A stretch of DNA of 64,000 nt from Pseudarthrobacter defluvii (lineage in GTDB: Bacteria; Actinomycetota; Actinomycetes; Actinomycetales; Micrococcaceae). Made by a program: the position numbers and the translations under genes. The stretch lies in contig NZ_JAUSYG010000001.1 in assembly GCF_030816725.1 (NCBI RefSeq), positions 744,001 through 808,000 of the forward strand. Direction: 5' to 3'. Positions 1 through 11,439 of the stretch are shown piece by piece. Below the pieces are notes generated by a model, which was given only the letters and a program-made list of their open reading frames with translations, made no database searches and was not told the DNA's origin. Every line of letters begins with the position of its first letter. The first letter of the stretch is position 1.

Positions 1-115
1 CATCGGCAGATAACTGCTCCCGCCCGGTGGTGGGCATCTCCGCGGCGGGCTGCTCGGCGCTGCGTGCCGCCTGGACGCCGCGGTCGTAAAGGGCGTGGTA
101 GTCCTCCGGGATCAT
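1..115 (-). CDS. Hypothetical protein, N-terminal fragment
   Basis: Reading leftward from ATG at 113-115, an open frame of 38 codons runs off the window edge, beginning MIPEDYHALYDRGVQ. A strong ribosome site GGAGGTGG (119-126 on the plus strand) sits correctly before this ATG, which fixes the start. No family is recognisable from the fragment. A perfect pair of GTGACGC heptamers on the same strand lies 110 nt upstream (226-243), so it probably belongs to the SARP-type regulon of the neighbouring genes. The rest of the gene lies outside the window. Confidence 0.6.
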   Translation of the reverse strand, partial: MIPEDYHALYDRGVQAARSAEQPAAEMPTTGREQLSAD

Positions 116-225: not shown

Positions 226-243
226 GCGTCACATTGGCGTCAC
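226..243 (-). promoter_or_regulatory. SARP-type operator (direct heptamer pair)
   Basis: On the minus strand GTGACGC is repeated perfectly with a 4-nt spacer (period 11 bp). It faces the leftward gene starting at 115. This is the two-heptamer, one-helical-turn layout bound by SARP regulators. It is the G variant (GTGACG) of the GTAACG sites further right. Confidence 0.6.
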
Positions 244-278
244 CGTAGCACTGCCCGCCCACACCGGCGCGGTCGAGG

Positions 279-296
279 GTGACGCTTCGGTGACGA
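279..296 (+). promoter_or_regulatory. SARP-type operator before the 120-aa protein
   Basis: GTGACGC, spacer TTCG, GTGACGA: two heptamers at 11-bp period, ending 63 nt before the start codon at 360. With the site at 226-243 it forms a divergent operator pair, as at 2778/2827 and 9040/9114. Confidence 0.6.
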
Positions 297-359
297 GCCG
301 TTGGGACCATGCCTTGAGCGGGTCAATCCGGCCCGCCCACACTCGCAAAGGGGAGAACG

Positions 360-722
360 ATGGCAAACGAAACAAACGATGAGTACGCCGAGTTCGACGA
401 GCAAGCAGTCACGGCCACCCTTGAGGCATCAAGGCAACCGTTTGAGGGGCGCAACCTTCAGGAGGTTGACTTCTCCGCAGTGGATGGCGGCGAACTCGAA
501 CTCCGTGCGTCATGCATTTCAATCACGTCCGGAAACCACAGGGTCTGCCTCAAGCTTCCGCTGGGAATCGGGAATGTCTGCCTCCCCTTGCCGTTCGATC
601 TTCCAGACGGCACCGCGGTCCGGGCGTGCCTGAGTACCCGCACGAAGTGGGGTATCCCCACGGGCGTCTGCGTCAAGCTTTACGTCGCCGGCGAGCAAAT
701 CGTCAGCAAGTGCTTCCCCTAA
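360..722 (+). CDS. Hypothetical 120-aa protein of the SARP island
   Basis: ATG at 360 follows a good ribosome site (GGGGAG). The product is 120 aa, acidic at the N-terminus (MANETNDEYAEFDEQ), with a predicted beta-rich C-terminal half that contains five cysteines (positions about 51, 63, 73, 89 and 103) and a sixth at the third residue from the end. There is no signal peptide or membrane segment. I do not recognise the family. It follows a SARP-type heptamer pair at the standard distance and is followed by the DUF397 gene about 95 nt downstream, so the two may be co-transcribed. A cytosolic location is expected. Confidence 0.6.
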   Translation: MANETNDEYAEFDEQAVTATLEASRQPFEGRNLQEVDFSAVDGGELELRASCISITSGNHRVCLKLPLGIGNVCLPLPFDLPDGTAVRACLSTRTKWGIPTGVCVKLYVAGEQIVSKCFP

Positions 723-817
723 GCCGACGCCACACCCCTTGTGGGTAAGCCATCACCAACGGCCCGGGCGGGACGGGACGCTCCGCCCGGACCTCCATCG
801 AATCACAGGGAGTAGAA

Positions 818-1009
818 GTGGATGACGCAGTCCGGTTTGAGCGCTCTTCCTATTGCGCCAACAGCTGTTGCGTTGAGGTGGCCGTGGTGCGCCGGGCAGG
901 TTTGGTCCAGGTGCGCAGTTCACAGGTCCCCGATGTGCAGATAACCTTCTCGGCGGAGGAATGGCGGGCCTTTCTCGCCGGGGTCAAGAATGATGAATTC
1001 GATGTCTAG
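818..1009 (+). CDS. DUF397 domain protein
   Basis: A 63-aa protein starting at GTG 818 after a GGGAG ribosome site. It has the DUF397 pattern: FERSSYC near the start, a cysteine/valine strand (CCVEVAVV), VRSS in the middle and the typical FSAEEWRAFLAGV end. DUF397 proteins are small actinobacterial proteins usually next to an XRE-type helix-turn-helix regulator with which they act. No XRE gene is adjacent here; the nearest regulator is the SARP at 1974-2711. Its stop codon overlaps the convergent oxidoreductase stop in a shared CTAG (1006-1009). Confidence 0.8.
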   Translation: MDDAVRFERSSYCANSCCVEVAVVRRAGLVQVRSSQVPDVQITFSAEEWRAFLAGVKNDEFDV

Positions 1010-1947
1010 CTGCCCTGGGTGTCCCAGGTCTTCGCAAAGATATCCTCGTCGAGGTAGGCGGCAGCCGTAACACCGCTTGCAACCGCCGTGGCCACGAAGG
1101 TCATGTTTCCGGCAGCCGTGGCCGCCTTGGCCATGTCACCCACGGCAAGCACACGGGGCACCGAAGTGCGCTGAAAGTGGTCCACCTGGACGCGGCCATC
1201 GTCCGTCAGGCAGCATCCAAGTGCGTGGGGGAGGGGCGAACCTTGCCGGAAGCGGGTTGAGAGGAAGCCTGCGTTGTAGGTCCGCACAGTGGAATCTCCC
1301 ATCAGCAGCGCCAAACCCCCTGCTGAGGCCCGGATCCCAACAACGTCGCGGTCCTCTATCCGGATGCCGCCCCTGCGGAGTCGCTCCCGCGTCCCGGCGC
1401 AGAAGTCCGGCTTTCCATTGCTGCAAAGCTCTACGTCCCGGCTGATGCGGTCATGCACGTAAGCAGCCATGAAGGCTGCGTGTTCGCTGTTGCCAAGCAC
1501 AACCAGACGCTGATCCTGTGCCTCGAAGCCGTGGCACAGGGGACAATGGAACAGGCAGGTGCCGTACGCGCTGCCGACTCCCGGGATGGGCGGAAGCACG
1601 TCCACCACACCCGTGGCCAGGATCAGGAAATCCGCGCAGATGGTGCCCGCTGCCACAGCGGACACCAGGACCCGCGAATCCTCCACCAGAACGTTCGTGG
1701 CTTCCGTCAGCAACAATGAAACGGTATGGAGTCCCGCAAGCTCCCGGCGGGCCGCGAGGACCAACCCTTCCGGCGTCATCCCCTCGCGCCCCAGCAGCAT
1801 GTGCACACTGGAAGCTGCTGCGTTCCGCCCTTGGTGGCCATCCAGCAAAACGACACGCCTTCGCTGTCTGCCAAGCACCTGTGCGGCGGCCATGCCGGCC
1901 GGGCCACCGCCGATGATAGCCACTTCGAAGTGGGATTGGGACTCCAT
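1006..1947 (-). CDS. NAD(P)/FAD-dependent oxidoreductase, thioredoxin-reductase-like
   Basis: About 313 aa. The N-terminal FAD-binding Rossmann motif is AIIGGGPAGMAAAQVLG. The middle has the redox pair CPLC in FHCPLCHGFE, then a second nucleotide-binding segment VVLGNSEHAAFMAAY, and a C-terminal AVGDMA FAD motif. This is the layout of single-chain thioredoxin-reductase-like oxidoreductases; the true disulfide partner is unknown. I chose the ATG at 1947 (MESQSHFEV); an in-frame TTG at 1962 is also possible. It lies 26 nt downstream of the SARP gene on the same strand, so the two probably form an operon controlled by the operator at 2778-2795. Confidence 0.85.
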   Translation of the reverse strand: MESQSHFEVAIIGGGPAGMAAAQVLGRQRRRVVLLDGHQGRNAAASSVHMLLGREGMTPEGLVLAARRELAGLHTVSLLLTEATNVLVEDSRVLVSAVAAGTICADFLILATGVVDVLPPIPGVGSAYGTCLFHCPLCHGFEAQDQRLVVLGNSEHAAFMAAYVHDRISRDVELCSNGKPDFCAGTRERLRRGGIRIEDRDVVGIRASAGGLALLMGDSTVRTYNAGFLSTRFRQGSPLPHALGCCLTDDGRVQVDHFQRTSVPRVLAVGDMAKAATAAGNMTFVATAVASGVTAAAYLDEDIFAKTWDTQGS

Positions 1948-1973
1948 GCCCGAGGCTCTCAACGCAGGGGCTT

Positions 1974-2711
1974 TCAGCGGACGCGCGCTGGATTTGGGCT
2001 TGTCAGCATGACTTCGTACATGCGCGCCGAGAGTTGCGTGGGTATACCGGCCTCAACCAGGAGGGCCCTGTATCTATCCACCTGCCGCCGGGCCTCGCTG
2101 ACATTACCTTCAGCAAGGTGAACCCGGATGAGGCAACGGTGCGCGCTCTCCCGCAACGGATCACCCGCAATCGCCTGCAGCGCCGCTTCGATCGCGTCAT
2201 CGAACCTTTCTGCGCTTGCGTACCAGGCGGACATTCGCTCCAGGGCGTGGAGCCGGACCTGGTGCTGGCGCTCGCGGTCGATCACCAGCCAGTCGTCGTA
2301 CCAGCCGGGCAATAATTCCCAGCTGAGCGAACCGCTCTGCACCGGCGGGGCTTGGCCCGGCAACCAGTGATCCAGCCGGTCGCGCAGCAGAGTCACATCC
2401 ACCCGCATGGACGGGGTCAGGTAGAGCCGGTCACCCACGGCAGCCACCAGGGAGCGGCCGTCCGGCCGCGGAAGCCTCCACAGCGTCGAGCGGAGGCATC
2501 CCCGTGCCTGGGCCTCGTCAAGGTCAGGCCACAACTGGGCTGAGACCGATGTCCGCGTCAGCGTGTTGCGCAGCGCCAAAAATGCCAGCAGATGCTCAGC
2601 CCGGGGGGCCAGTTCCACTGTTGACTCGCCGTGTCCCAGCCGAAAGTCCCCTAACAGTCGAAGGTCAAGAGCCGGTCCGCCGTGAGGCTCGCAGTTTCTC
2701 CCCAATTCCAT
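1974..2711 (-). CDS. SARP family transcriptional activator (OmpR-like DNA-binding domain plus BTAD)
   Basis: The 245-aa protein begins LRLLGDFRLGHG, typical of SARP winged-helix domains, with the helix region VSAQLWPDLDEAQARGCLRS and then the BTAD tetratricopeptide-like domain (LLPGWYDDW, RLHALERMS, ALQAIAGDPLRESAHR, HLAEGNVSEARRQVDRYR). It lacks the NB-ARC/TPR extension of large SARPs, so it is a small SARP such as those acting in pathway-specific regulation. ATG at 2711 follows GAGAGGA. SARPs bind two direct heptamers 11 bp apart; such pairs lie 66 nt upstream of its own start and before most genes of this island, suggesting autoregulation and local control. The binding is inferred. Confidence 0.9.
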   Translation of the reverse strand: MELGRNCEPHGGPALDLRLLGDFRLGHGESTVELAPRAEHLLAFLALRNTLTRTSVSAQLWPDLDEAQARGCLRSTLWRLPRPDGRSLVAAVGDRLYLTPSMRVDVTLLRDRLDHWLPGQAPPVQSGSLSWELLPGWYDDWLVIDRERQHQVRLHALERMSAWYASAERFDDAIEAALQAIAGDPLRESAHRCLIRVHLAEGNVSEARRQVDRYRALLVEAGIPTQLSARMYEVMLTSPNPARVR

Positions 2712-2777
2712 GGCATAGTCCTCTCCCGCCTGCTCACCCCACAGAGTCTGCGTTGTAGGTGAAGTGCATCTCCCAAG

Positions 2778-2795
2778 GCGTTATTGCCGCGTTAC
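2778..2795 (-). promoter_or_regulatory. SARP-type operator of the SARP-oxidoreductase operon
   Basis: On the minus strand: GTAACGC, GGCA, ATAACGC (period 11 bp), with its proximal edge 66 nt before the SARP start. It is divergent to the site at 2827-2844 in the same intergenic region. Confidence 0.65.
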
Positions 2796-2826
2796 CGTTG
2801 ACCAAGGCAACCAGCGGCCGTGAGGG

Positions 2827-2844
2827 GTAACGCCCCTGTAACGC
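2827..2844 (+). promoter_or_regulatory. SARP-type operator before the FHA gene
   Basis: GTAACGC, CCCT, GTAACGC: a perfect heptamer repeat at 11-bp period. Eight nt after the second heptamer comes TAGCCT (2853-2858), a plausible -10 box at the spacing known for SARP-activated promoters. The GTG start of the FHA gene is 64 nt downstream. Confidence 0.7.
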
Positions 2845-2908
2845 CTCGGTCTTAGCCTGATTTTCACCTGCCGACAAAGCACGGAGAATCAGTCCTAAGG
2901 AAACTGCA

Positions 2909-3694
2909 GTGGACTCAAAAGTTTCCCGGCTCATCGCCCTCGGGCCGCAGGGCAACCCGGCCACCGACCTGGAGCTGACGCGCGGTTCCATGACTCTGGG
3001 CCGCAGCCATACCAACGACCTGGTGCTTTCGGAACCAACCGTGAGCAGGGTGCACGCGTCACTTTCTGTGGACGACAGCGGCCGTGCCTGGGTCCAGGAT
3101 CTGGGGTCCAGCGCCGGAACAACAGTTAATGGACGGCCTGCCTCCGGACTGGTCCTGCTGCACTCGGGCGACGTCATCGCCTTCGGCGGTGCCCGGTTCC
3201 GGTATCAGGGTGCATCCGAAAGGGAGGTGGCCACCGCTGCCTTCCCAGTCCAGCAGGGGGACCGCCCACGGCCACGCGACGAGCACCCCAGGGGCCGGTA
3301 CGACATAGAGAGCCAGCGCGCGGGAAACATCAGCAATGTGGCGGGTAACCAGTACACCGCCTACGTCAGCCATGTTCGGCAAGAACGTGAAAGTTTCCTT
3401 CAGACAATAGCGGCCACACGGACGAAGGCCCGCTGGATGATCTGGATTGGTCTGGGCCTGACCATTGTGGGCCTCGTGGTGGTTGGGGTGAACTTTGTCC
3501 AGTTCACGGAAGACCTGCCTGCGTACACCGGTGAAGGTTTTCCTTCCTCATTCCGCGGCTACATCATCGGTATCTTCATCGTGGGCGGCGGGCAGTTGCT
3601 GATGATCATTGGCTTGGTCCTTCACATCGTTGCGACGTCCAGGCGGAAGAGGGTGGACCGCGAATTTCCGTTGCCTCGTCCAGCAGGTTATTGA
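2909..3694 (+). CDS. FHA-domain membrane protein with NVAGNQY motif
   Basis: A 261-aa protein from GTG 2909. Residues about 20-100 form an FHA phosphothreonine-binding domain: MTLGRSHTNDLVL, VSRVHASL, LGSSAGTTVNG and LHSGDVIAFGGARF contain the usual GR, SRxH and NG residues. A linker follows with the motif G-N-I-S-N-V-A-G-N-Q-Y (139-149), then two membrane segments at about 174-196 and 217-241, and a basic tail. The FHA domain and linker are probably cytosolic. The linker motif, from YDI onward, reappears at the N-terminus of the next gene, which points to a shared binding or assembly partner. It is first in a likely operon with the gene at 3716 and is preceded by a SARP operator. Confidence 0.85.
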   Translation: MDSKVSRLIALGPQGNPATDLELTRGSMTLGRSHTNDLVLSEPTVSRVHASLSVDDSGRAWVQDLGSSAGTTVNGRPASGLVLLHSGDVIAFGGARFRYQGASEREVATAAFPVQQGDRPRPRDEHPRGRYDIESQRAGNISNVAGNQYTAYVSHVRQERESFLQTIAATRTKARWMIWIGLGLTIVGLVVVGVNFVQFTEDLPAYTGEGFPSSFRGYIIGIFIVGGGQLLMIIGLVLHIVATSRRKRVDREFPLPRPAGY

Positions 3695-3715
3695 GCGCAT
3701 GAAGGAGTAAGTGAA

Positions 3716-4096
3716 GTGGGATTCAATATCAAGCATCAGACAGGCGGAGTAGTCAACAACGTCGAAGGGAACCAGTACATTCACGGGGATCAGCGAAGCG
3801 GGATGGTCAACACCGGCTCGCTGCGCGACGCGGTTCTGGAATTGGAACGGGGTGTTGCCTCACTTGGGCTTTCCAGCTCCCAACTGGCGGCGATCTCCGG
3901 ACACATCAAAGAGCTGGACCAGGAAGCCGGCCGCACCCATCCGGAACCGGAAAAGGTTGCAGGACCCCTCACGAAGATAACGGAAATTGCAGCTGCGGCA
4001 GGCGCCCTTGCGGGTCTGGCCGGGCCAATTCAAAGCCTGATCACGTGGCTGGGTCCGCTTGGGCAACCCATCGCCAGGCTGTTCATGGGCGGGTGA
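3716..4096 (+). CDS. 126-aa NVEGNQY-motif protein with hydrophobic tail
   Basis: Starts at GTG 3716 after GAAGGAG, 21 nt behind the FHA gene. The first 26 residues carry FNI..Q..GVVNNVEGNQY, aligning residue for residue with the linker of the FHA protein, and continue into YIHGDQRSGMVNTG. Glycine/asparagine/glutamine-rich motifs of this kind resemble short amyloid-like signalling motifs that pair bacterial sensors with effectors; that comparison is inference. A charged helical middle (about 30-80) leads to an Ala/Gly/Leu-rich tail (about 88-124: AAAAGALAGLAGPIQSLITW), which could insert in or associate with membranes. No catalytic motif is visible. Confidence 0.7.
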   Translation: MGFNIKHQTGGVVNNVEGNQYIHGDQRSGMVNTGSLRDAVLELERGVASLGLSSSQLAAISGHIKELDQEAGRTHPEPEKVAGPLTKITEIAAAAGALAGLAGPIQSLITWLGPLGQPIARLFMGG

Positions 4097-4117
4097 CCAG
4101 GAGTGCTGATCCTCCCG

Positions 4118-4135
4118 GTAACGGCGCCGTAACGC
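4118..4135 (+). promoter_or_regulatory. SARP-type operator before the subtilisin gene
   Basis: GTAACGG, CGCC, GTAACGC at 11-bp period. CATTCT (4145-4150) lies about 9 nt beyond as a possible -10 box, and the GTG start is 62 nt downstream. The protease therefore has its own promoter although it follows the 126-aa gene on the same strand. Confidence 0.65.
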
Positions 4136-4197
4136 CCCGCTTTGCATTCTGGCTGCGATAAGCAGCAGGCATAGCCGAACGGACGGGAGAAAACGCT

Positions 4198-6471
4198 GTG
4201 GGTACAACCACGAACGAAGACCAAAGGGATCTTCCCCGCTCAGAGCCGGAACTGATTGTCGTGCTGCAGCCGGAGCATGCACGCCGGCTTGCAGCGGTTG
4301 CTCCGGAATCGCGGGATGTGTCGGGGCCCGCGCTCACTTCCGTAGCGGGCCCATTGTCCGATGTGCTCGGTGCCCATGGCGCCGCCCTGGTCCCGCTGTT
4401 CCCCCAGGCCTTCGCTGAGAGCGGCCGCGGTCCGTCCGCCCCGGCTGAGGAGAGGCAGGAAGGCGACGACGGCGTCAGCCCTGCGGCACCCGGGGCGGAG
4501 CCTGAGGGGGAGCTGCCTACGTACTTCCGGGTGGAAGCCCCCACCGAGGAACTGGAATCTATCGCGGAGGAACTCCGCGGCAGCGACGGCGTTGCCGGAG
4601 CATACGTGCGCCCGCCCATCCTCTTGCCCACAATCGAGGCCGTATCCGCTCCTCTGAACACGATGGTTCCCAGGCCCGAGGAACCGGCAGCCGCTACCCC
4701 GGATTTCACGTCCCGCCAGGGCTATCTGGATCCAGCCCCCGCCGGAGTGGACGCGCGCTTTGCGTGGACCATCGCAGGAGGACGCGGCGCCAACTTGCGG
4801 ATAGTTGACTGCGAGCATGGTTGGCTGCTGGACCACGAAGACCTGCTCGCCAACAACGGGGGCGTCGTCAGCGGGACGAATAACGCCTCCAACGATCACG
4901 GCACCGCCGTTTTTGGCATTCTCGGAGGGGACCGGGACGGCAAGGGGGTCACGGGGATTGCCCCGGACGCGTGGCTTGCGGCGTCGTCGTGGACGGCCCA
5001 GGCGGCGGCCACTGCCATCACGGACGCCGCGAACAGCCTCAGGCCGGGCGACTTCCTGCTCCTTGAAGGCCAACTCGGCGGACCCAACCACACCAATCCA
5101 AACTCGGACGTGGGCCTGATCGCGCTGGAATGGTGGCCGGACCTGTTTGCTGCGATCCGCGCGGCCAGCAACCGGGGCATCATCGTCGTCGAGGCTGCCG
5201 GGAACGGGTTCCAGAACCTGGACGATCCGGTTTACAGCACGCCGCAGAACGGTTTCCCCTCCACATGGCGCAACCCATTCAACACCGCCAACCCGCAAAG
5301 CGGCGCTGTGATGGTCGGGGCTGGCGCGCCCCCTGCCGGGTTCAACGGTAGTGCCTGGGGGCCGGACCGGTCACGCCTGGACTACTCCAATTACGGGAAC
5401 CGGGTGGACGCCCAGGGCTGGGGGCGGGAGGTAGTCAGCACCGGCTACGGAGACCTTCAGGGGGGCACTCCCCAGCGCCGGTACACCGCGGAATTCGCCG
5501 GAACGTCCAGCGCCTCGCCCATCGTGCTCGGCGCCCTGGCGGTTGTGCAGGGCATCGCCACCGGCCGGGGCCCGCTGCGCCTGACGCCGGCCCGCGCCCG
5601 GTCCTTGCTGCGGATGGTTGGAACGCCCCAACAGGCAGCTCCCTCGCGTCCTGTCACGCAGCGCATTGGCCACCGCCCCGATGCCAAGCAGCTGCTCACT
5701 GCCATGAAGCGCGTCAGCGCCCGGGCGGCCGACTTTGACGGGGACCACCGCGCTGAGGTCCTGGTAACCAGTCCGTGGGGGATCGGCATCCTGAAGCAGC
5801 AGGGCAACACGTTCAGCAATCCGGTCATCGCGCCCAACGGCACACGTTTTGGCGGGTGGCTGCTGAACACCGCGGACAACCTGATAGGCCCGGTAGCGGA
5901 TTTCGACGGGGACGGCCGGGCGGAGGTCCTGGTGACGAGCCCGTGGGGGATCGGCATCCTGAAGCAGCAGGGCAACACGTTCAGCAATCCGGTGATCGCG
6001 GCGAACGGGACCCGGTTTGGCGGGTGGCTGTTGAATACCGCGGACAACCATGTTGCGGCTGTGGCGGATTTCGACGGGGACGGGCGGGCCGAGATCCTGG
6101 TGACCAGTCCGTGGGGGATCGGCATCCTGAAGCAGCAGGGCAACACGTTCAGCAATCCGGTGATCGCGGCGAACGGGACCCGGTTTGGCGGGTGGCTGCT
6201 GAATACCGCGGACAACCATGTCGCGGCTGTGGCGGATTTCGACGGCGATGGGCGGGCGGAGATCCTGGTGACCAGTCCGTGGGGGATCGGCATTCTGAAG
6301 CAGCAGGGCACCACGTTCAGCAATCCGGTGATCGCGCCCAACGGCACCCGGTTCGGCGGCTGGCTGTTGAATACCGCGGACAACACGCTTGGTCCCGCAG
6401 CCGATTTCGACGGCGACGGCCGGGCCGAGATCCTGGTGACCAGTCCCTGGGGGATCGGCATCCTGGAATAG
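4198..6471 (+). CDS. S8 (subtilisin-like) serine protease with C-terminal repeats, cut short by an amber codon
   Basis: The 757-aa product starts at GTG 4198 after GGGAG. The catalytic triad is visible: Asp204 (RIVDCEHGW), His234 (NDHGTAVFG) and Ser437 (AGTSSASP), with oxyanion Asn336 (EAAGNG). There is no signal peptide; the N-terminal 190 residues are acidic and proline/alanine-rich, so either the enzyme is cytosolic or export is unconventional. From about residue 512 begin 56-residue repeats (ADFDGDGRAEILVTSPWGIG...NTADN), FG-GAP/VCBS-like, with Asp-rich calcium-type loops. TAG at 6469-6471 stops translation in the fifth repeat, where sister repeats 6 and 7 have CAG (Gln). The frame stays open to 6903, so the ancestral protein was 901 aa. 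Confidence 0.85.
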   Translation: MGTTTNEDQRDLPRSEPELIVVLQPEHARRLAAVAPESRDVSGPALTSVAGPLSDVLGAHGAALVPLFPQAFAESGRGPSAPAEERQEGDDGVSPAAPGAEPEGELPTYFRVEAPTEELESIAEELRGSDGVAGAYVRPPILLPTIEAVSAPLNTMVPRPEEPAAATPDFTSRQGYLDPAPAGVDARFAWTIAGGRGANLRIVDCEHGWLLDHEDLLANNGGVVSGTNNASNDHGTAVFGILGGDRDGKGVTGIAPDAWLAASSWTAQAAATAITDAANSLRPGDFLLLEGQLGGPNHTNPNSDVGLIALEWWPDLFAAIRAASNRGIIVVEAAGNGFQNLDDPVYSTPQNGFPSTWRNPFNTANPQSGAVMVGAGAPPAGFNGSAWGPDRSRLDYSNYGNRVDAQGWGREVVSTGYGDLQGGTPQRRYTAEFAGTSSASPIVLGALAVVQGIATGRGPLRLTPARARSLLRMVGTPQQAAPSRPVTQRIGHRPDAKQLLTAMKRVSARAADFDGDHRAEVLVTSPWGIGILKQQGNTFSNPVIAPNGTRFGGWLLNTADNLIGPVADFDGDGRAEVLVTSPWGIGILKQQGNTFSNPVIAANGTRFGGWLLNTADNHVAAVADFDGDGRAEILVTSPWGIGILKQQGNTFSNPVIAANGTRFGGWLLNTADNHVAAVADFDGDGRAEILVTSPWGIGILKQQGTTFSNPVIAPNGTRFGGWLLNTADNTLGPAADFDGDGRAEILVTSPWGIGILE

Positions 6472-6903
6472 GCCGGGAACACGCTGGGCAATCCCATGCT
6501 CGCCCCCAACGGGACGCGCTTCGGGCAATGGCTGCTCAACACCGCTGACAACCAGTTCGGCCCGGTGGCGGACCTGGATGGCGACGGACGGGCGGAGATC
6601 CTGGTGACGAGTCCCTGGGGCATCGGCATTTTGGAGCAGGCGGGAAACACGCTGGGAAACCCGGTCATTAAGCCTAACGGGACCCGCTTTGGCGGCTGGC
6701 TGTTGAACACGGCGGACAACCGCCCCGGGGCGCTCGCTGACTTCGACGGCGACGGCCGGGCGGAGATGCTGGTGACGAGTCCCTGGGGCATCGGCATCCT
6801 GGAACAGGCAGGCAATACGCTTGGCAATCCGCTGATCGCCCCCAACGGCACCCGCTTTGGGCAGTGGTTGCTCAACACAGCGGACAACGAATTCGGGGTC
6901 TAG
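5731..6903 (+). repeat. Seven tandem 168-bp coding repeats (56 aa each)
   Basis: Repeat units begin at 5731, 5899, 6067, 6235, 6403, 6571 and 6739, always at GA(C/T) of the DFDGD/DLDGD motif, with an exact 168-bp period. Units 2-4 are nearly identical at DNA level, pointing to recent duplication or gene conversion. Units 5-7 have ILExAGNTLGNP instead of ILKQQGNTFSNP. Confidence 0.9.
6472..6903 (+). pseudogene. Orphaned C-terminal repeats of the S8 protease
   Basis: The same reading frame as the protease continues after the amber codon for 143 codons (rest of repeat 5, repeats 6 and 7) and ends at TAG 6901-6903, which shares CTAG with the convergent glycosidase stop. No ribosome site precedes the internal ATG at 6496. 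It is therefore best read as the separated tail of the upstream protein rather than an independent gene, unless the amber codon is a sequencing error or is read through. Confidence 0.75.
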
Positions 6904-8863
6904 GGTTCTCCCTGGGTTTGTGAAAAGACCAGGATCGAATTGGCCGGAATGGTGAGGGTTGAAGAGAAAGGCAGCCCGTGCATTCCCGGGCCCTGGGCAG
7001 CGGTGCCTCCGTTGTTCCCCTGAACCCACGGGTTGGGAAAGTGATCGTAGTAATCGCTGTTGAAAAGTTCGGTCCATTGACCCGCTGAAGGGAAACCCAG
7101 GGAGTAGTCGTAAAGTGTTGATTCCGCCAGGCTCAGCACCACAACCACGTCCTGCCCTTCCCCGGGCACCCACCGGTGGAAGGCGACCACCCGGTTGGAC
7201 AAATCGACATGGTAGGAATTTGTGGAGCCATTGCACAGTGCCGGTTGGGTGCGCCGCAGCCCGATGAGGTCGCGGGTGAACACGTGGAAGTCTGCCCGGG
7301 TCCGGTTCCCGGCCAGCGCTGCCCAGTCAATGAAGCGGTCCGCCCTGGTGGGATTGTCGGACCAGAGCCTGTCCTCAAGGAACTCCTGTCCCATGAACAG
7401 CATGGGTACCCCGGCGGCGGTGAGCAGCGCTCCTGTCGCTACCCGGGAGCGGCTGCGTGCGTACCAGGAGCCTGAATCTGTTGCGTCGGCGAGCGCGGGT
7501 ACGCGCGGCGAGCGGTGGTCCCCGTCCTCGTCGAGAACCAGGTCGTGGTTCTCGAGGCAGTTGTACAAACGGGCCGGCGACGCTTGTTCCGGAAGGTCTC
7601 CCAAAACGTTGTGGAGCGGCAGGAGGTTTACGTTTGCGGCCGCCCCCCGCTGGCCTCGGCCAGCATTCCACGCAGGGCGTTCCGGAGACCGTCGGCGTAG
7701 CCCAGATCGAACCCCATCCCGGCGGGCGGCTGCCTGACGGCCTTCTCCCGCGGGCTGTTCCAGTACTCTGCGATGAGCACGGCAGAGGGCTTGATGTAGT
7801 GCAGGGTCTGCGTCATGTCGCTGCAAAGCGACCCGCCGCCGTCGTGGTCTTCTATGACGCTGACCTCGTCAAAGCGCAACCCGTCGGTGTGGTACTCCTG
7901 CAGGAACATGGAGGCGTTGTCAATGAGGAATTGCCGCACTTCAGGACGGTCGAAGGCAAAGACCCGTCCGCCCGCGTAGCCGGCACCGGAGAAGTAGAGG
8001 TTGTTCTGGTCGTTCGGGAAGGCGGGCAGGTCAAAATGGTCCATGCTCTGGCTGTCGAACCCTCCGCCGGCGTGGTTATAGACGACATCCGGAATGACAG
8101 CGATCCCGTACAGGTGGCAGACGTCGACAAACGCCTTCAGCTGCTCCACCTGACCGCCAACATCATTGGGCCCCAGGGGAGGGAACCCCTTCTTGGCCAA
8201 AAGACTGTTCAGCCGGTTCAGGTAGGGGCCGATATCGGCTGGGCCAACGCAGTAGTCCATCTCCGGTGAATAGATGTCGGTGCCGTTGTAGCCCAGGCTC
8301 CATTCGCCGTGGAACTCCACCAGGGGCAGCGGCTGCAGGGCGTTGATTCCGAGGTCCGCCAGGTATTCGATGCGTTCCATCGCGTCCAGGAATTTGGCCA
8401 CCCGGTAGGGACGGATGTCGTGGCCGGCCTCGTCCCGCGCGGAGAAGACCCCTACGTGGAACTGATAGACGATCAAGTCCTTGAGTCGAGGTGGCCTGTA
8501 GTCCTGGTCGTGCCACGGGTAGCTGTCCACCGGGCGGACAATGCCATCGCACCTGGGCGGGTATTCGAATAGTTCGAGTTCCCGTGCCCGGGGATCGCGC
8601 CTCAATCCGCTTCCTCCCGGTCCCAGCACTTTGAACCGGTATTTGTCGCCGTCCGAAACTCCGGGAAAGAACCCGGTCCAGTGGCCAGTCCCTGCATTCT
8701 TGACAAGCTCGTCCTCGGGGCGGGGTGTGTACCCGTCTGCCCCGTCCAGGGCGACGTAGACGTGCTCTGCCCGCGGTGCCCAGACGCGGAAGGTTGCCCC
8801 GCCGTCAACCAGCCGGGCACCCATGGGGGTGGATTCAGAGATATGTTCCTGCGAAGCGGCCAC
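6900..8863 (-). pseudogene. GH13 alpha-glucan glycosidase/branching-enzyme-like, single frameshift
   Basis: The N-terminal part (8863-7628, GTG start after GGGAG) has a CBM48-like domain (FRVWAPRAEHVYVALDG) and the GH13 barrel: DVVYNHAGG (region I), DGLRFDEVS with nucleophile Asp332 (region II) and AEYW with acid/base Glu366 (region III). The frame then shifts; the second part continues with LENHD (region IV), the rest of the barrel and a C-terminal beta domain. The break is at a run of six C (7643-7648); one extra base there restores a continuous frame of about 654 aa. The likely role is hydrolysis or transfer on alpha-glucans such as glycogen or trehalose precursors. No signal peptide is seen. 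A SARP operator lies upstream at 9040-9057. Confidence 0.8.
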
Positions 8864-9039
8864 GACATGCTCCCAACCCGCGTCTGTATTAGAACGACGT
8901 CCCAGGCCCCGCCAGTGGGTTTACAGGCAACTCGGCTGGCCAGGCACCGAGGACAGGGCCGCATTTCGCTACCCGTCCGTCAGGCGTTGCTGATTACCCC
9001 CCGGCTTGCAGAGGCGTCTCGCCTGAGTATTCAGTGCAG

Positions 9040-9057
9040 ACGTTACTGCCCCGTTAC
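9040..9057 (-). promoter_or_regulatory. SARP-type operator upstream of the GH13 gene
   Basis: Minus strand: GTAACGG, GGCA, GTAACGT at 11-bp period. It lies 176 nt before the GTG start of the glycosidase, further than the usual 55-66 nt, so the transcript may have a long leader. Confidence 0.6.
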
Positions 9058-9113
9058 TGGCCGCAGGCCAGTTGGTGAGTGGGGCAGCATTGTCGGGACG
9101 CTGTGGGTCCGCA

Positions 9114-9131
9114 ATAACGCGTCGGTAACGG
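9114..9131 (+). promoter_or_regulatory. SARP-type operator before the DUF3616 unit
   Basis: ATAACGC, GTCG, GTAACGG at 11-bp period, ending 61 nt before the ATG of the small ORF at 9193. This spacing supports 9193 rather than 9294 as the first translated codon of the unit. Confidence 0.6.
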
Positions 9132-9192
9132 CTTAGCCGCTGGAATTTCCTTGGGGTTTGGCTCAGAGAGAACGTGTTGAGGAGAAGCCGCT

Positions 9193-9297
9193 ATGACCCA
9201 CCGACGAGGCGCCGGCATCGAAATCCGCCGGCTGCAGCAGACGAGGACGGGGTCCTCGCGCCTGAACCGTGCCTGGCGTTGGGGTGATCCACGGTGA
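9193..9297 (+). CDS. 34-aa basic leader-type peptide
   Basis: A short frame from ATG 9193 with a strong GAGGAG ribosome site, rich in arginine (MTHRRGAGIEIRRLQQTR...). Its TGA (9295-9297) overlaps the GTG start of the DUF3616 gene, which itself has no clear ribosome site. The arrangement indicates translational coupling. It could be a leader peptide or a small protein; no homologue is recognised. Confidence 0.5.
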   Translation: MTHRRGAGIEIRRLQQTRTGSSRLNRAWRWGDPR

Positions 9298-10364
9298 GCG
9301 AATGGCCTCCGCCAGACGAACCGTCGGGCGAAGTGAAACTCCTTTTCGAGGAATCCAGCACGGTCGGTGGCAAGAAGGATCTGCGTGATGGACTGTCCGC
9401 GATTGCCCGCCAGGGCAGGCATTTCTGGGTCGCAAACGACGAGAGTACCAGCCTCGAGCGGCTCACCCTTGAGGGCGACCATGCCCGCGACCATCGCAGC
9501 TTTGATCTCACCAAGGTCCTTGAGCTGCCCGGGGAGGGTGAAATCGACATCGAAGGTCTCGATGTCGATGATGACACGCTGTGGCTGCTCGGGTCACACA
9601 GTTCGGTGCGCAAGCGGGTCAAGGACAAGCACAGCCCTGACGAGGCACGGGACTTGTTGGCGGCGGTGGAGGTCAGCCAGCGCCGGCAGGTGCTGGCACG
9701 GATCTCGACCCAAGCATTGCTTGACCCTGACGGCACCATGACTGCTGAGCAGCAACGCCCCGCCGTATTCGGCCCTGGTCAAGGCGGCGGAGGCCTGTTG
9801 GGCATGCTGGCCGGCGACCGGCACCTTGGGGGCTTCATAGGGTCACTCCCAATCCCGGGCAAGGACAACGGGATCGACTTTGAGGGACTCGCCGTGGCAG
9901 GTGACAGGGTGTTCGTCGGCCTGCGCGGGCCGGTGTTGCGCGGGTGGGCGGTAATTGTCGAGCTCCGGGTCGGCGACGGGCCAGGCATCGTCCCTGAGCC
10001 GATAGGTCCTGAGGGCTGGACGTACCGGAAGCACTTCCTTGACCTGCGTGGCCTGGGCGTGCGGGATCTGTGCCGTCACCGAGACGACCTGCTCGTCCTG
10101 GCGGGACCAACCATGGAGCTCGACGGACGCACGGCGGTGCTTCGCTGGCAGGGCGCAATGACGTCCGAGAACGAGGCGGTTCTGCGCAAAGATGACCTGA
10201 AATGCGCTCTCAATGTACCGTTCGGGAAAAGCGAGGACCGGGCCGAGGGCATCACCTTGCTGGAGGGCGGCAGGTCGGTTCTGGTGGTGTACGACTCGCC
10301 CGCTGACGAGCGCAAAACCGGAGATCATGGCGTCCGCGCCGACGTCTTCGATCTACGGGCGTAG
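9294..10364 (+). CDS. DUF3616 domain protein
   Basis: A 356-aa soluble protein without signal peptide. It carries DUF3616 landmarks: DGLSAIARQGRHFWVANDE, DIEGLDVDDDTLWLLGSHS, then DFEGLAVAGDRVFVGLRGPVLRG, and late DRAEGITLLE. The repeated D(I/F)EGL blocks suggest a beta-propeller of the kind seen in calcium-dependent or phytase-like proteins; no enzymatic activity is established for the family. GTG at 9294 overlaps the preceding 34-aa ORF, and the unit is headed by a SARP operator. It converges on the membrane protein gene at 10521. Confidence 0.8.
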   Translation: MSEWPPPDEPSGEVKLLFEESSTVGGKKDLRDGLSAIARQGRHFWVANDESTSLERLTLEGDHARDHRSFDLTKVLELPGEGEIDIEGLDVDDDTLWLLGSHSSVRKRVKDKHSPDEARDLLAAVEVSQRRQVLARISTQALLDPDGTMTAEQQRPAVFGPGQGGGGLLGMLAGDRHLGGFIGSLPIPGKDNGIDFEGLAVAGDRVFVGLRGPVLRGWAVIVELRVGDGPGIVPEPIGPEGWTYRKHFLDLRGLGVRDLCRHRDDLLVLAGPTMELDGRTAVLRWQGAMTSENEAVLRKDDLKCALNVPFGKSEDRAEGITLLEGGRSVLVVYDSPADERKTGDHGVRADVFDLRA

Positions 10365-10520
10365 GAACAGTGTCTGCTCCGTCGCTGGGCGCGGACTGTT
10401 CTCGGTTCCGTACGGCCATGCAGCCCGGCGGCCGGTAAGGGTATCAGGACGCGGGCCGGCTGACTCCCGCCGCGGACTTGGGAACGGGCGCGGTCCTGGC
10501 TGCTTCCCCAGAGACCGGCT

Positions 10521-11195
10521 CTACGGGGTATGCACACCTACCACGTTGGTGGTAAGCATCAGGCTCGTCAAAGCCTTCATTGCAAGGTGGTAGTTCGCAA
10601 TTATCGTGCCGTCGTACTGCAGCTCTTCCTTGCTCAGCCCCGAATGCAGTTTGCCACCGAAACCCTTCGCGTTTATCTCATACAGGCGGTCGCTTGCCTG
10701 TCCCGTGATTCTCATGTAGCGGACCGTCAGGAGGTCGTCAATCCTGTGCCATTCGATTGCAGGGTCTTCCGCCGCAAAAATAGCTTCCAGCCTGGCCTGG
10801 AGCACCATGCTTCCGGCACGGCAATCGACGTAATGCTTATCCAGCGCAATTCGCGCCTTGCTCTTTTCCTCCAGGGTTACGGAACTGTCGCCCTTGATGC
10901 GCATATACATGTTGCACTCCAGATACAATCTGCCCGCCATCGTGAATGCGGTGGTTAGCACGTCCATTCGCAGCTGGGTTTCAAGTGCCCGGTCCGCCCG
11001 CGTCTGCTCGAGCAGAATATTAGCTGCCGTGCGTTCGCTCTGGATCCGGTCCGTTATTTTCCACACGATCAACCCAATCAGGCCTGTGCCCAGGACCGCT
11101 CCGATGATAGGTCCGACGCTGGCCAGCAGCAGCCGCTCGCCGAGCGGCTGTGCAACGGTGGCCAAGACATGCAGAGCCGCTGGTGCAGTTGCCAT
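10521..11195 (-). CDS. Hypothetical membrane-anchored protein, 224 aa
   Basis: ATG at 11195, 12 nt after the acidic small gene. One N-terminal membrane helix (about 25-45: ASVGPIIGAVLGTGLIGLIV) is followed by a charged, mostly helical soluble domain of about 175 residues. The domain contains three cysteines and no recognised catalytic motif. Topology would place the bulk in the cytosol after KITDRIQSER. It is probably co-transcribed with the 52-aa acidic protein from the SARP-type operator at 11422-11439. Confidence 0.65.
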   Translation of the reverse strand: MATAPAALHVLATVAQPLGERLLLASVGPIIGAVLGTGLIGLIVWKITDRIQSERTAANILLEQTRADRALETQLRMDVLTTAFTMAGRLYLECNMYMRIKGDSSVTLEEKSKARIALDKHYVDCRAGSMVLQARLEAIFAAEDPAIEWHRIDDLLTVRYMRITGQASDRLYEINAKGFGGKLHSGLSKEELQYDGTIIANYHLAMKALTSLMLTTNVVGVHTP

Positions 11196-11207
11196 CTGAC
11201 CCGCGCC

Positions 11208-11366
11208 CTAATCGTTCCGGAAGACGTCATCGGGGTCGACCTCTTCCGGCGCCATATGATCGACAGCGTCTGCTTCCACCAGCTCCGGGTAGAAATCATC
11301 GGGGTCAGGCTCCTCGGGGTTAGCGTCAATCCGGTGATCGTCCGGGTTGGATTGCTGGTGGTTCAT
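11208..11366 (-). CDS. Small acidic 52-aa protein
   Basis: ATG at 11366 after GGGAGGGG on the minus strand. The peptide is very acidic and proline-containing (MNHQQSNPDDHRIDANPEEP...DPDDFYPELVEADAVDHM...), with two DPDD(F/V) motifs. It has no hydrophobic segment and is probably disordered. The stop is 12 nt before the membrane protein gene. The nearest SARP heptamer edge is 55 nt upstream. Confidence 0.6.
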   Translation of the reverse strand: MNHQQSNPDDHRIDANPEEPDPDDFYPELVEADAVDHMAPEEVDPDDVFRND

Positions 11367-11421
11367 GAAAAATCCCCTCCCGCTAGCACTGGCGTTGCAC
11401 CATAACTAAGTAGCCATTCCT

Positions 11422-11439
11422 GCGTTACTGCTGCGTTAC
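11422..11439 (-). promoter_or_regulatory. SARP-type operator, right end of the island
   Basis: On the minus strand GTAACGC, AGCA, GTAACGC: a perfect heptamer repeat at 11-bp period, facing the acidic protein/membrane protein pair. It is the last such site seen, so the regulon boundary lies just before the paa operon. Confidence 0.65.

Follow-up and report, generated by a model that had tools for sequence, protein, structure and literature searches.

The stretch analysed here (the window) comprises 64,000 nucleotides of Pseudarthrobacter defluvii (contig NZ_JAUSYG010000001.1, positions 744,001 to 808,000), and its left end carries paired direct repeats around the gene of a small Streptomyces antibiotic regulatory protein (SARP), repeats that we regard as predicted operators of a dispersed regulon. 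All eight paired heptamers listed in a preliminary description of this DNA are present, six as exact GTRACG-N5-GTRACG pairs and two with one mismatch. The leftmost exact pair, GTGACGCCAATGTGACG (227–243, minus strand), faces a peptidase M36 gene with an FTP propeptide, whose 5′ end occupies 1–114 (minus strand, ATG at 114, 111 nt from the site end) and which leaves the window leftward to genome position 742022. The exact pair GTGACGCTTCGGTGACG (279–295, plus strand) stands 64 nt upstream of the ATG of a 120-aa protein without a Pfam family (360–722, plus strand). Between the SARP gene (1974–2711, minus strand, 245 aa) and the gene of a 261-aa FHA-domain protein (2909–3694, plus strand) lie GTAACGCGGCAATAACG (2779–2795, minus strand, one mismatch), 67 nt from the SARP ATG, and the exact pair GTAACGCCCCTGTAACG (2827–2843, plus strand), 65 nt from the FHA GTG. 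The exact pair GTAACGGCGCCGTAACG (4118–4134, plus strand) precedes by 63 nt the GTG of a 757-aa S8 peptidase with FG-GAP repeats (4198–6471, plus strand). Further right, the exact pair GTAACGGGGCAGTAACG (9041–9057, minus strand) is 177 nt from the GTG of a CBM48/GH13 protein, of which the N-terminal open frame encodes 411 aa (7628–8863, minus strand), and ATAACGCGTCGGTAACG (9114–9130, plus strand, one mismatch) lies 62 nt 5′ of a 34-codon leader ORF overlapping the start of a DUF3616 gene (9294–10364, plus strand, 356 aa). The last exact pair, GTAACGCAGCAGTAACG (11423–11439, minus strand), is 56 nt from the ATG of the first gene behind it, a 52-aa acidic ORF (11208–11366, minus strand). The three divergent arrangements described earlier are thus 227/279, 2779/2827 and 9041/9114. 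The similar start-codon distance reported for six of the eight sites was measured as 56–67 nt, the M36 and GH13 sites being the other two. The TAGCCT box was also read where it had been placed: at 2853–2858 on the plus strand it begins 9 nt past the second GTAACG of the 2827 site, or 8 nt past the heptamer, and resembles a −10 element at SARP spacing, a geometry taken from the multi-organism site set described below.

The protein encoded at 1974–2711 has, according to profile matches and a predicted model, the architecture of a SARP, with a winged helix and a BTAD/TPR region. The Pfam scan identified BTAD (2e-8) and gave no match for the winged helix itself. When a profile of seven sequences was compared with the PDB, the best full-length match was AfsR (8hvr, residues 13–244, E 3.6e-12); the top row was an engineered TPR protein matched over 55 residues only. 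The structure prediction, moderately confident at pLDDT 75 and pTM 0.43, shows a winged-helix plus TPR fold, and a fold search with it returned 8k60 and 8hvr (AfsR) at the top and then EmbR, at poor TM-scores of 0.31–0.38. ActII-ORF4 and DnrI are SARP activators of the same class as AfsR. Linked biosynthetic genes, the mark of an antibiotic-cluster SARP, were not seen among the 19 Pfam-scanned proteins of the island and the outlying targets, from which PKS, NRPS and similar families are absent.

SARP activators recognize direct repeats with a period of 11 or 22 bp, and 8 bp separate the last of these from the −10 element (PMC10936776). Search of named genomes yielded 79 SARP loci (1.43 Mb), mostly from Geodermatophilus, Blastococcus, Modestobacter and Micromonospora according to their titles. 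Counted over these loci, 96 GTRACG pairs have a spacing of 5 and 22 a spacing of 16, with 0–7 for each of the other values up to 30; no pair was obtained with two control motifs at four spacings. Fifty of the 79 loci carry a pair. Among 153 sites from many organisms, each the last in its array, TANNNT follows the second GTRACG at +9/+10 in 21, while the 39 remaining offsets together account for 9. The operator geometry, with its 11- or 22-bp period and its −10 distance, is that of a SARP operator. The peak at spacing 16 corresponds to two helical turns, and overlapping triple repeats recur in the same loci, so longer SARP arrays may occur. An exact pair also precedes the start of the SARP gene itself in G098, two Micromonospora and one Mycolicibacterium. 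Taken together, the SARP architecture, the SARP geometry and the pairs that accompany SARP genes elsewhere support the reading of these repeats as a SARP operator, and the 2779 site 5′ of the SARP gene likely reflects autoregulation.

The P. defluvii genome (4.58 Mb) contains 13 exact pairs, compared to 2 matches for a reversed-pattern control, and seven of the 13 are found inside 17 kb around the SARP gene. When the spacing was varied from 0 to 25, 13 pairs were obtained at 5, against 3.0 on average for the other spacings, of which 9 came highest with 11 pairs. For GTAACG/GTAACG alone, a count by eye gives 10 pairs with spacing 5 and 2 with all remaining spacings combined. The presence of 6 of the 13 exact pairs in the given 11.4 kb has a binomial P of ~4e-13, a post hoc value, since it was the sites that led to the choice of this stretch. 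This genome-wide search, proposed in the preliminary description, therefore found the exact pattern clustered and not evenly dense. A uniform density, or a lack of conservation at related loci, had been named there as evidence to the contrary; neither was found, and pairs recur before homologous genes in other genomes, although not before all of them.

Eleven of the 13 exact pairs precede a plausible gene start. Seven lie outside the window, at genome positions 35071, 344855, 738504, 821072, 826422, 1733193 and 3158303. The earlier statement that no pair occurs further right thus holds within the window, where none is exact beyond 11439, but not for the genome. Likewise, the "local regulon" proposed there stands as a SARP-controlled island but is too narrow, as sites also occur at 35, 738 and 821–826 kb and probably at 3158 kb. 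The 3158303 pair probably belongs to the regulon, and the 1733193 pair, at an ORF start, is probably due to chance. Membership is doubtful for the 344855 pair, ~127 nt before a deacetylase gene with a signal-like N-terminus.

The 35071 site, ~710 kb from the SARP gene, lies ~62 nt 5′ of the first gene of an operon (314 aa), behind which come sheath and tube genes. Large ORFs run on one strand from 35123 to ~59774. Pfam families were matched in 7 of 10 proteins (sheath, gp19 tube, Pvc16_N, AAA, eCIS_core and Baseplate_J, with CIS_tube below cut-off), and eCIS_core is represented by two genes. The locus has the gene content of an extracellular contractile injection system (eCIS) and is predicted to encode one, namely by its sheath, tube, baseplate, AAA, Pvc16 and eCIS_core. 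At 821072 the site is 22 nt before the first ATG of an operon encoding an alpha/beta hydrolase (lipase) and an S8 peptidase, and at 826422 it is ~200 nt before the ATG of an Endonuclease_NS (non-specific nuclease) gene. Directly 3′ of this S8 gene is a 76-aa ORF without a Pfam match (L015:16124–16354, genome position 824124), which we take to resemble a stand-alone subtilisin inhibitor. A simple hydropathy measure detected no N-terminal hydrophobic segment in the S8-FG-GAP, GH13, DUF3616, lipase, S8 and nuclease proteins, and none was seen by eye in the translated M36 peptidase. By the same measure such a segment is present in an 80-aa membrane protein, a 224-aa island protein and the 3158303 target; in a wider target set it was counted in 13 of 114, a figure that stands without a control set.

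Homologous targets are shared between organisms. The lipase is found behind a pair in P. defluvii and in two Modestobacter (49–50% identical), and the 80-aa membrane protein in P. defluvii and G078 (78%). Targets of G038 and G122 that we assign to M10 peptidases are 73% identical, S8-like targets of G038 and G145 68%, and targets of L129 and L142 that we assign to DUF2278 68%. The SARP genes themselves are homologous pair-bearing targets in different organisms. The Pfam tally gave six S8 and three M10 matches among 85 target proteins (top 25 families), and no S8 was present among the top 25 families of 74 neighbour control proteins. The 85 targets consist of 74 selected from 114 computed plus 11 from P. 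defluvii, and the 74 controls were likewise selected from 114; the starts of both sets come from a simple script, some of them in wrong frames. A small protein (98–150 aa as called) also recurs behind the operator in Geodermatophilus and Modestobacter loci (L122, L124, L130, L136 and L172).

The operator is found at eCIS loci of other genomes, including loci away from a SARP gene. In the fetched stretches of the 79 SARP loci, 6 hold sheath or tube genes and 10 any eCIS match, and a pair directed at the sheath gene is present in two Micromonospora (L163, L173), an Amycolatopsis (L170) and a metagenome-assembled genome of Thermoleophilia (L191). We then considered 49 SARP-positive genomes, drawn from a selection of 50 of the 79 loci without metagenome-assembled genomes, short contigs and several Micromonospora, and a sheath was found in 25. 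Thirty sheath loci were returned. The 11 closest to that of P. defluvii (L199–L209, E up to 1e-86) each carry, within ~1.1 kb, a pair directed at the sheath operon, nine being exact (L199, L201–L204, L206–L209) and two having one mismatch (L200 and L205, the latter with an additional exact pair facing away); the distances and orientations were read by eye, and the cut at 11 was drawn after the E-values had been seen, which detracts from this figure. The 19 remaining loci contain no exact pair in 1.5-kb flanks, which fall short of the operon start in other eCIS types. In longer stretches, L291, L299 and L303 show an exact pair that faces the operon at 1.4–2.1 kb 5′ of the sheath, and L296, L298 and L302 a one-mismatch pair in the same orientation at 1.07–1.5 kb; L307 has a one-mismatch pair 3.7 kb upstream. 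The first gene after the pair in L296 and L298 (one mismatch) and in L299 (exact) gives a tblastn match to a Pvc16-like protein. These 19 stretches contain five pairs at spacing 5 and 0–1 at every other spacing. The idea that the operator is restricted to eCIS like that of P. defluvii was rejected on the basis of the three exact and three one-mismatch operon-facing pairs in these distant loci, which indicate that it is not confined to that type.

In the closest locus (G181) the pair precedes a homologue of the first eCIS gene of P. defluvii. The sheath of this organism, Geodermatophilus pulveris (L171/L269), is 76% identical to the P. defluvii sheath, far closer than other matches, a hint of horizontal eCIS transfer.

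Plasmids provided an additional sample. Among 72,556 plasmids, a sheath was found in 127 and a SARP homologue in 40, and of 15 sheath plasmids listed among the 127, five also carry a SARP homologue. Three of these five, Streptomyces CP109155, CP109103 and CP109276, have an exact pair before the eCIS operon. Nine of the 15 listed plasmids were examined, with an exact pair in three (H2, H10, H11) and none in six (H1, H3, H4, H12, H13, H15). CP109155 has a second operator, a triple repeat, facing the other eCIS operon directly beside the SARP gene. On the Streptomyces clavuligerus plasmid pF1D10B (L288) a SARP gene adjoins the plasmid eCIS, and overlapping one-mismatch pairs face its DUF4255 gene.

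In a family sample of 149 genomes (SARP counted at E 1e-10), a SARP was found in 38, a sheath in 15 and Pvc16_N in 12. SARP genes are present in 12 of the 16 genomes with an eCIS (sheath or Pvc16_N) versus 26 of the 133 others (P 1.4e-5, kinship uncorrected). In three g28 genomes paired SARP genes adjoin an eCIS of a different type, whose first gene is preceded by one-mismatch pairs, and G082, where a SARP gene precedes the sheath, has overlapping one-mismatch pairs at the end of that gene. A class-wide sample of 394 genomes, taken irrespective of SARPs, contained a sheath (E 1e-30) in 60, P. defluvii included, and exact pairs were found in 2 of the 29 new loci returned. Across 13 of these neighbourhoods a SARP is linked in three, and the pair precedes the sheath in two of the three; none of the 10 without a linked SARP has a pair.

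We interpret the eight pairs as predicted binding sites of a small SARP that would co-activate a dispersed regulon including the eCIS operon, a reading to which, judging from sequence comparison, we assign a probability of roughly 80%. What the sequences show directly is a motif of specific spacing and promoter geometry, which is associated with SARP genes and stands upstream of many related eCIS operons; we infer binding, activation, the acting SARP and the purpose. Two SARP subunits would bind as a dimer, next to each other, to the repeats, which stand in for a poor −35 element, and the bound protein would recruit RNA polymerase to the −10 box 9–10 nt on, as shown for AfsR. Its activation would switch on the SARP gene itself, the adjacent FHA gene and the eCIS operon ~710 kb away, together with a set of enzymes predicted to lack signal peptides: M36, S8 with FG-GAP repeats, GH13, DUF3616, lipase, S8 and non-specific nuclease. 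The regulator is likely the SARP of 1974–2711, possibly acting together with a second SARP 8–9 kb upstream. As to purpose, we favour the view that these enzymes and the eCIS would act in one common event, in which the enzymes would be either particle cargo or cytosolic agents of self-digestion, released by the lysis that frees the particles. Leaderless hydrolases predicted to be co-expressed with an injection machine suggest one of these two roles, and the lack of signal peptides by a simple measure and the common operator suggest that the island enzymes could be eCIS cargo.

Several results weigh against so broad an interpretation. With up to two mismatches the window gives 20 matches versus a shuffle mean of 15, not above chance, and with up to one mismatch the genome gives 62 versus 96 for the control, without excess. 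Only the exact pairs are thus significant alone, and the one-mismatch sites of the island were accepted on their position; the one-mismatch genome scan was rejected as a means of extending the regulon, and no outside weak sites were added. Thirteen of the 19 distant sheath loci have no sheath-facing pair within 3 kb upstream. Nine of the 10 best class-level sheath matches besides that of P. defluvii are without a pair, six of the nine coming from one genus (g64), and in G492 the linked SARP is more divergent and an exact pair is absent. Among 27 family sheath loci (that of P. defluvii and 26 from 14 genomes), only that of P. defluvii has an exact pair in 1.5-kb flanks. G096 and G143 possess a similar sheath and a SARP match, yet no pair in ~19 kb. 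These pairless loci led us to reject the idea that the operator marks every eCIS like that of P. defluvii. On plasmids, CP108040 and Rhizobium CP050086 carry an eCIS and a SARP homologue and no exact pair in the stretches examined, which for Rhizobium include 20 kb around the sheath. In the family, mean site counts are 2.71 in SARP carriers and 1.39 in other genomes, and the control motif shifts alike (2.87 versus 1.67), so the counts were discarded as a proxy for the regulon; among genomes with at least five pairs, 7 of 8 are SARP carriers (P 3e-4), only this tail being informative. The pair in Micromonospora is directed at genes of small proteins, which we take to be TcmI-type cyclases of polyketide clusters, and the operator would thus also be used elsewhere. 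Finally, G038 has 13 pairs (control 6) and three SARP matches, with no sheath or Pvc16_N and one marginal eCIS_core match. The regulon is therefore not solely for eCIS, and its equation with an eCIS regulon was rejected. The operator thus marks a SARP subfamily that would often, not always, control an eCIS.

A wider proposal is that the GTRACG-N5-GTRACG regulon is a transferable control of at least two actinobacterial eCIS types, which would fire the machine together with an unlinked leaderless arsenal, be it cargo or self-digestion set. We advance it tentatively and at somewhat less than even odds. If it is true, the operator could serve to list candidate cargo genes anywhere in a genome. The closest competitor of our main interpretation, a serious possibility although not one we would expect to prevail, is a real regulon that would serve as a conflict or defence set of leaderless proteases, nucleases and signalling proteins, with the eCIS as one member and the enzymes not as cargo. 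The pairs and SARPs of G038, where no eCIS is detectable, fit this alternative, as do some targets elsewhere that match TPR-S and AAA_16 in Pfam and the TIR-like start of L094 and DUF4062-like start of L092 that we read in the sequences. Against it, pairs face more than one eCIS type in SARP-positive genomes, and co-occurrence of SARP with eCIS is seen both in the family and among plasmids.

Which SARP would act on the sites is a separate matter. A second small SARP with BTAD (L014:8806–9669, genome positions 736806–737669; 33% identical) lies 8–9 kb left of the window SARP, so either protein might act at a given site. The operator could belong mainly to this second protein, or to both, the window SARP then not being the main regulator; a one-mismatch pair at 737886 and the exact pair at 738504 lie close to the second gene. 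We consider this unlikely, since a one-mismatch pair precedes the start of the window SARP gene, as exact ones do for SARP genes of G098, two Micromonospora and a Mycolicibacterium, and the window SARP is 34–39% identical to five aligned SARPs from other eCIS-bearing loci. That the pairs are chance matches or a common promoter quirk beside unrelated genes would agree with the mismatch counts, which do not exceed controls, but is very improbable given the exact-pair excess, the spacing tests, the recurrence in other genomes and the −10 geometry.

The SARP-controlled regulon that we favour shares with AfsR-like activators the winged helix plus BTAD, the 11-bp (sometimes 22-bp) direct repeats and the −10 spacing (PMC10936776). 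Unlike known SARPs, which mostly act in antibiotic clusters, it would use a GTRACG repeat and a chromosome-wide set including an eCIS and leaderless enzymes. Geller et al. (2021) reported GerE or BTAD regulators next to eCIS loci and modelled the BTAD genes as likely regulators (PMC8213781), a link also cited in a review (PMC12961389). In those loci the BTAD gene lies beside the eCIS, whereas here the SARP gene is ~710 kb away, and the consulted text of that study gives neither an operator sequence nor a regulon outside the locus. A SARP association with phage-tail genes of S. clavuligerus was predicted by STRING (PMC13102240). The Streptomyces contractile injection system, actinobacterial like the present one, is under developmental control and linked to regulated cell death within the strain, and no SARP operator is described in the relevant part of that report (PMC10020575). 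The S. lividans regulator SlpR was termed specific to its own cluster (PMC13277306). Our search of open-licence literature on eCIS regulators and SARP repeats retrieved neither this operator nor a dispersed SARP-eCIS regulon. BTAD genes beside eCIS as presumed regulators are thus already known; the operator and the dispersed regulon appear to be new. A defined operator offers a sequence handle for unlinked regulon members, including possible cargo without a recognisable tag, and would add a macromolecular machine to the antibiotic clusters served by SARPs. To our knowledge, little has been established about the switching-on of actinobacterial eCIS and about the membership of genes outside their loci; for the former the operator provides a testable prediction.

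EmbR from Mycobacterium tuberculosis (PDB 2fez) fuses a SARP domain to FHA in one protein (PMC10936776), whereas in the window the FHA protein has a gene of its own, transcribed divergently from the SARP gene; that the two are functionally linked is a guess. The remaining genes of the island are a 63-aa ORF 3′ of the 120-aa gene (818–1009, plus strand), a pyridine-nucleotide-disulphide oxidoreductase gene 3′ of the SARP gene (1006–1962, minus strand), the gene of a 126-aa protein with a weak DUF5955 match under the curated cut-off (3716–4096, plus strand) and that of the 224-aa protein with an N-terminal hydrophobic segment and no Pfam family (10521–11195, minus strand). In the S8/FG-GAP region (4198–6903) a stop codon falls inside the repeats, which resume in the next ORF (6496–6903). 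The GH13/CBM48 gene (6900–8863) is apparently split over the overlapping frames 7628–8863 and 6900–7826 and is possibly a broken gene. The FHA protein and the 126-aa protein (2909–4096) have in common a short NV-x-GNQY motif, noticed by eye.

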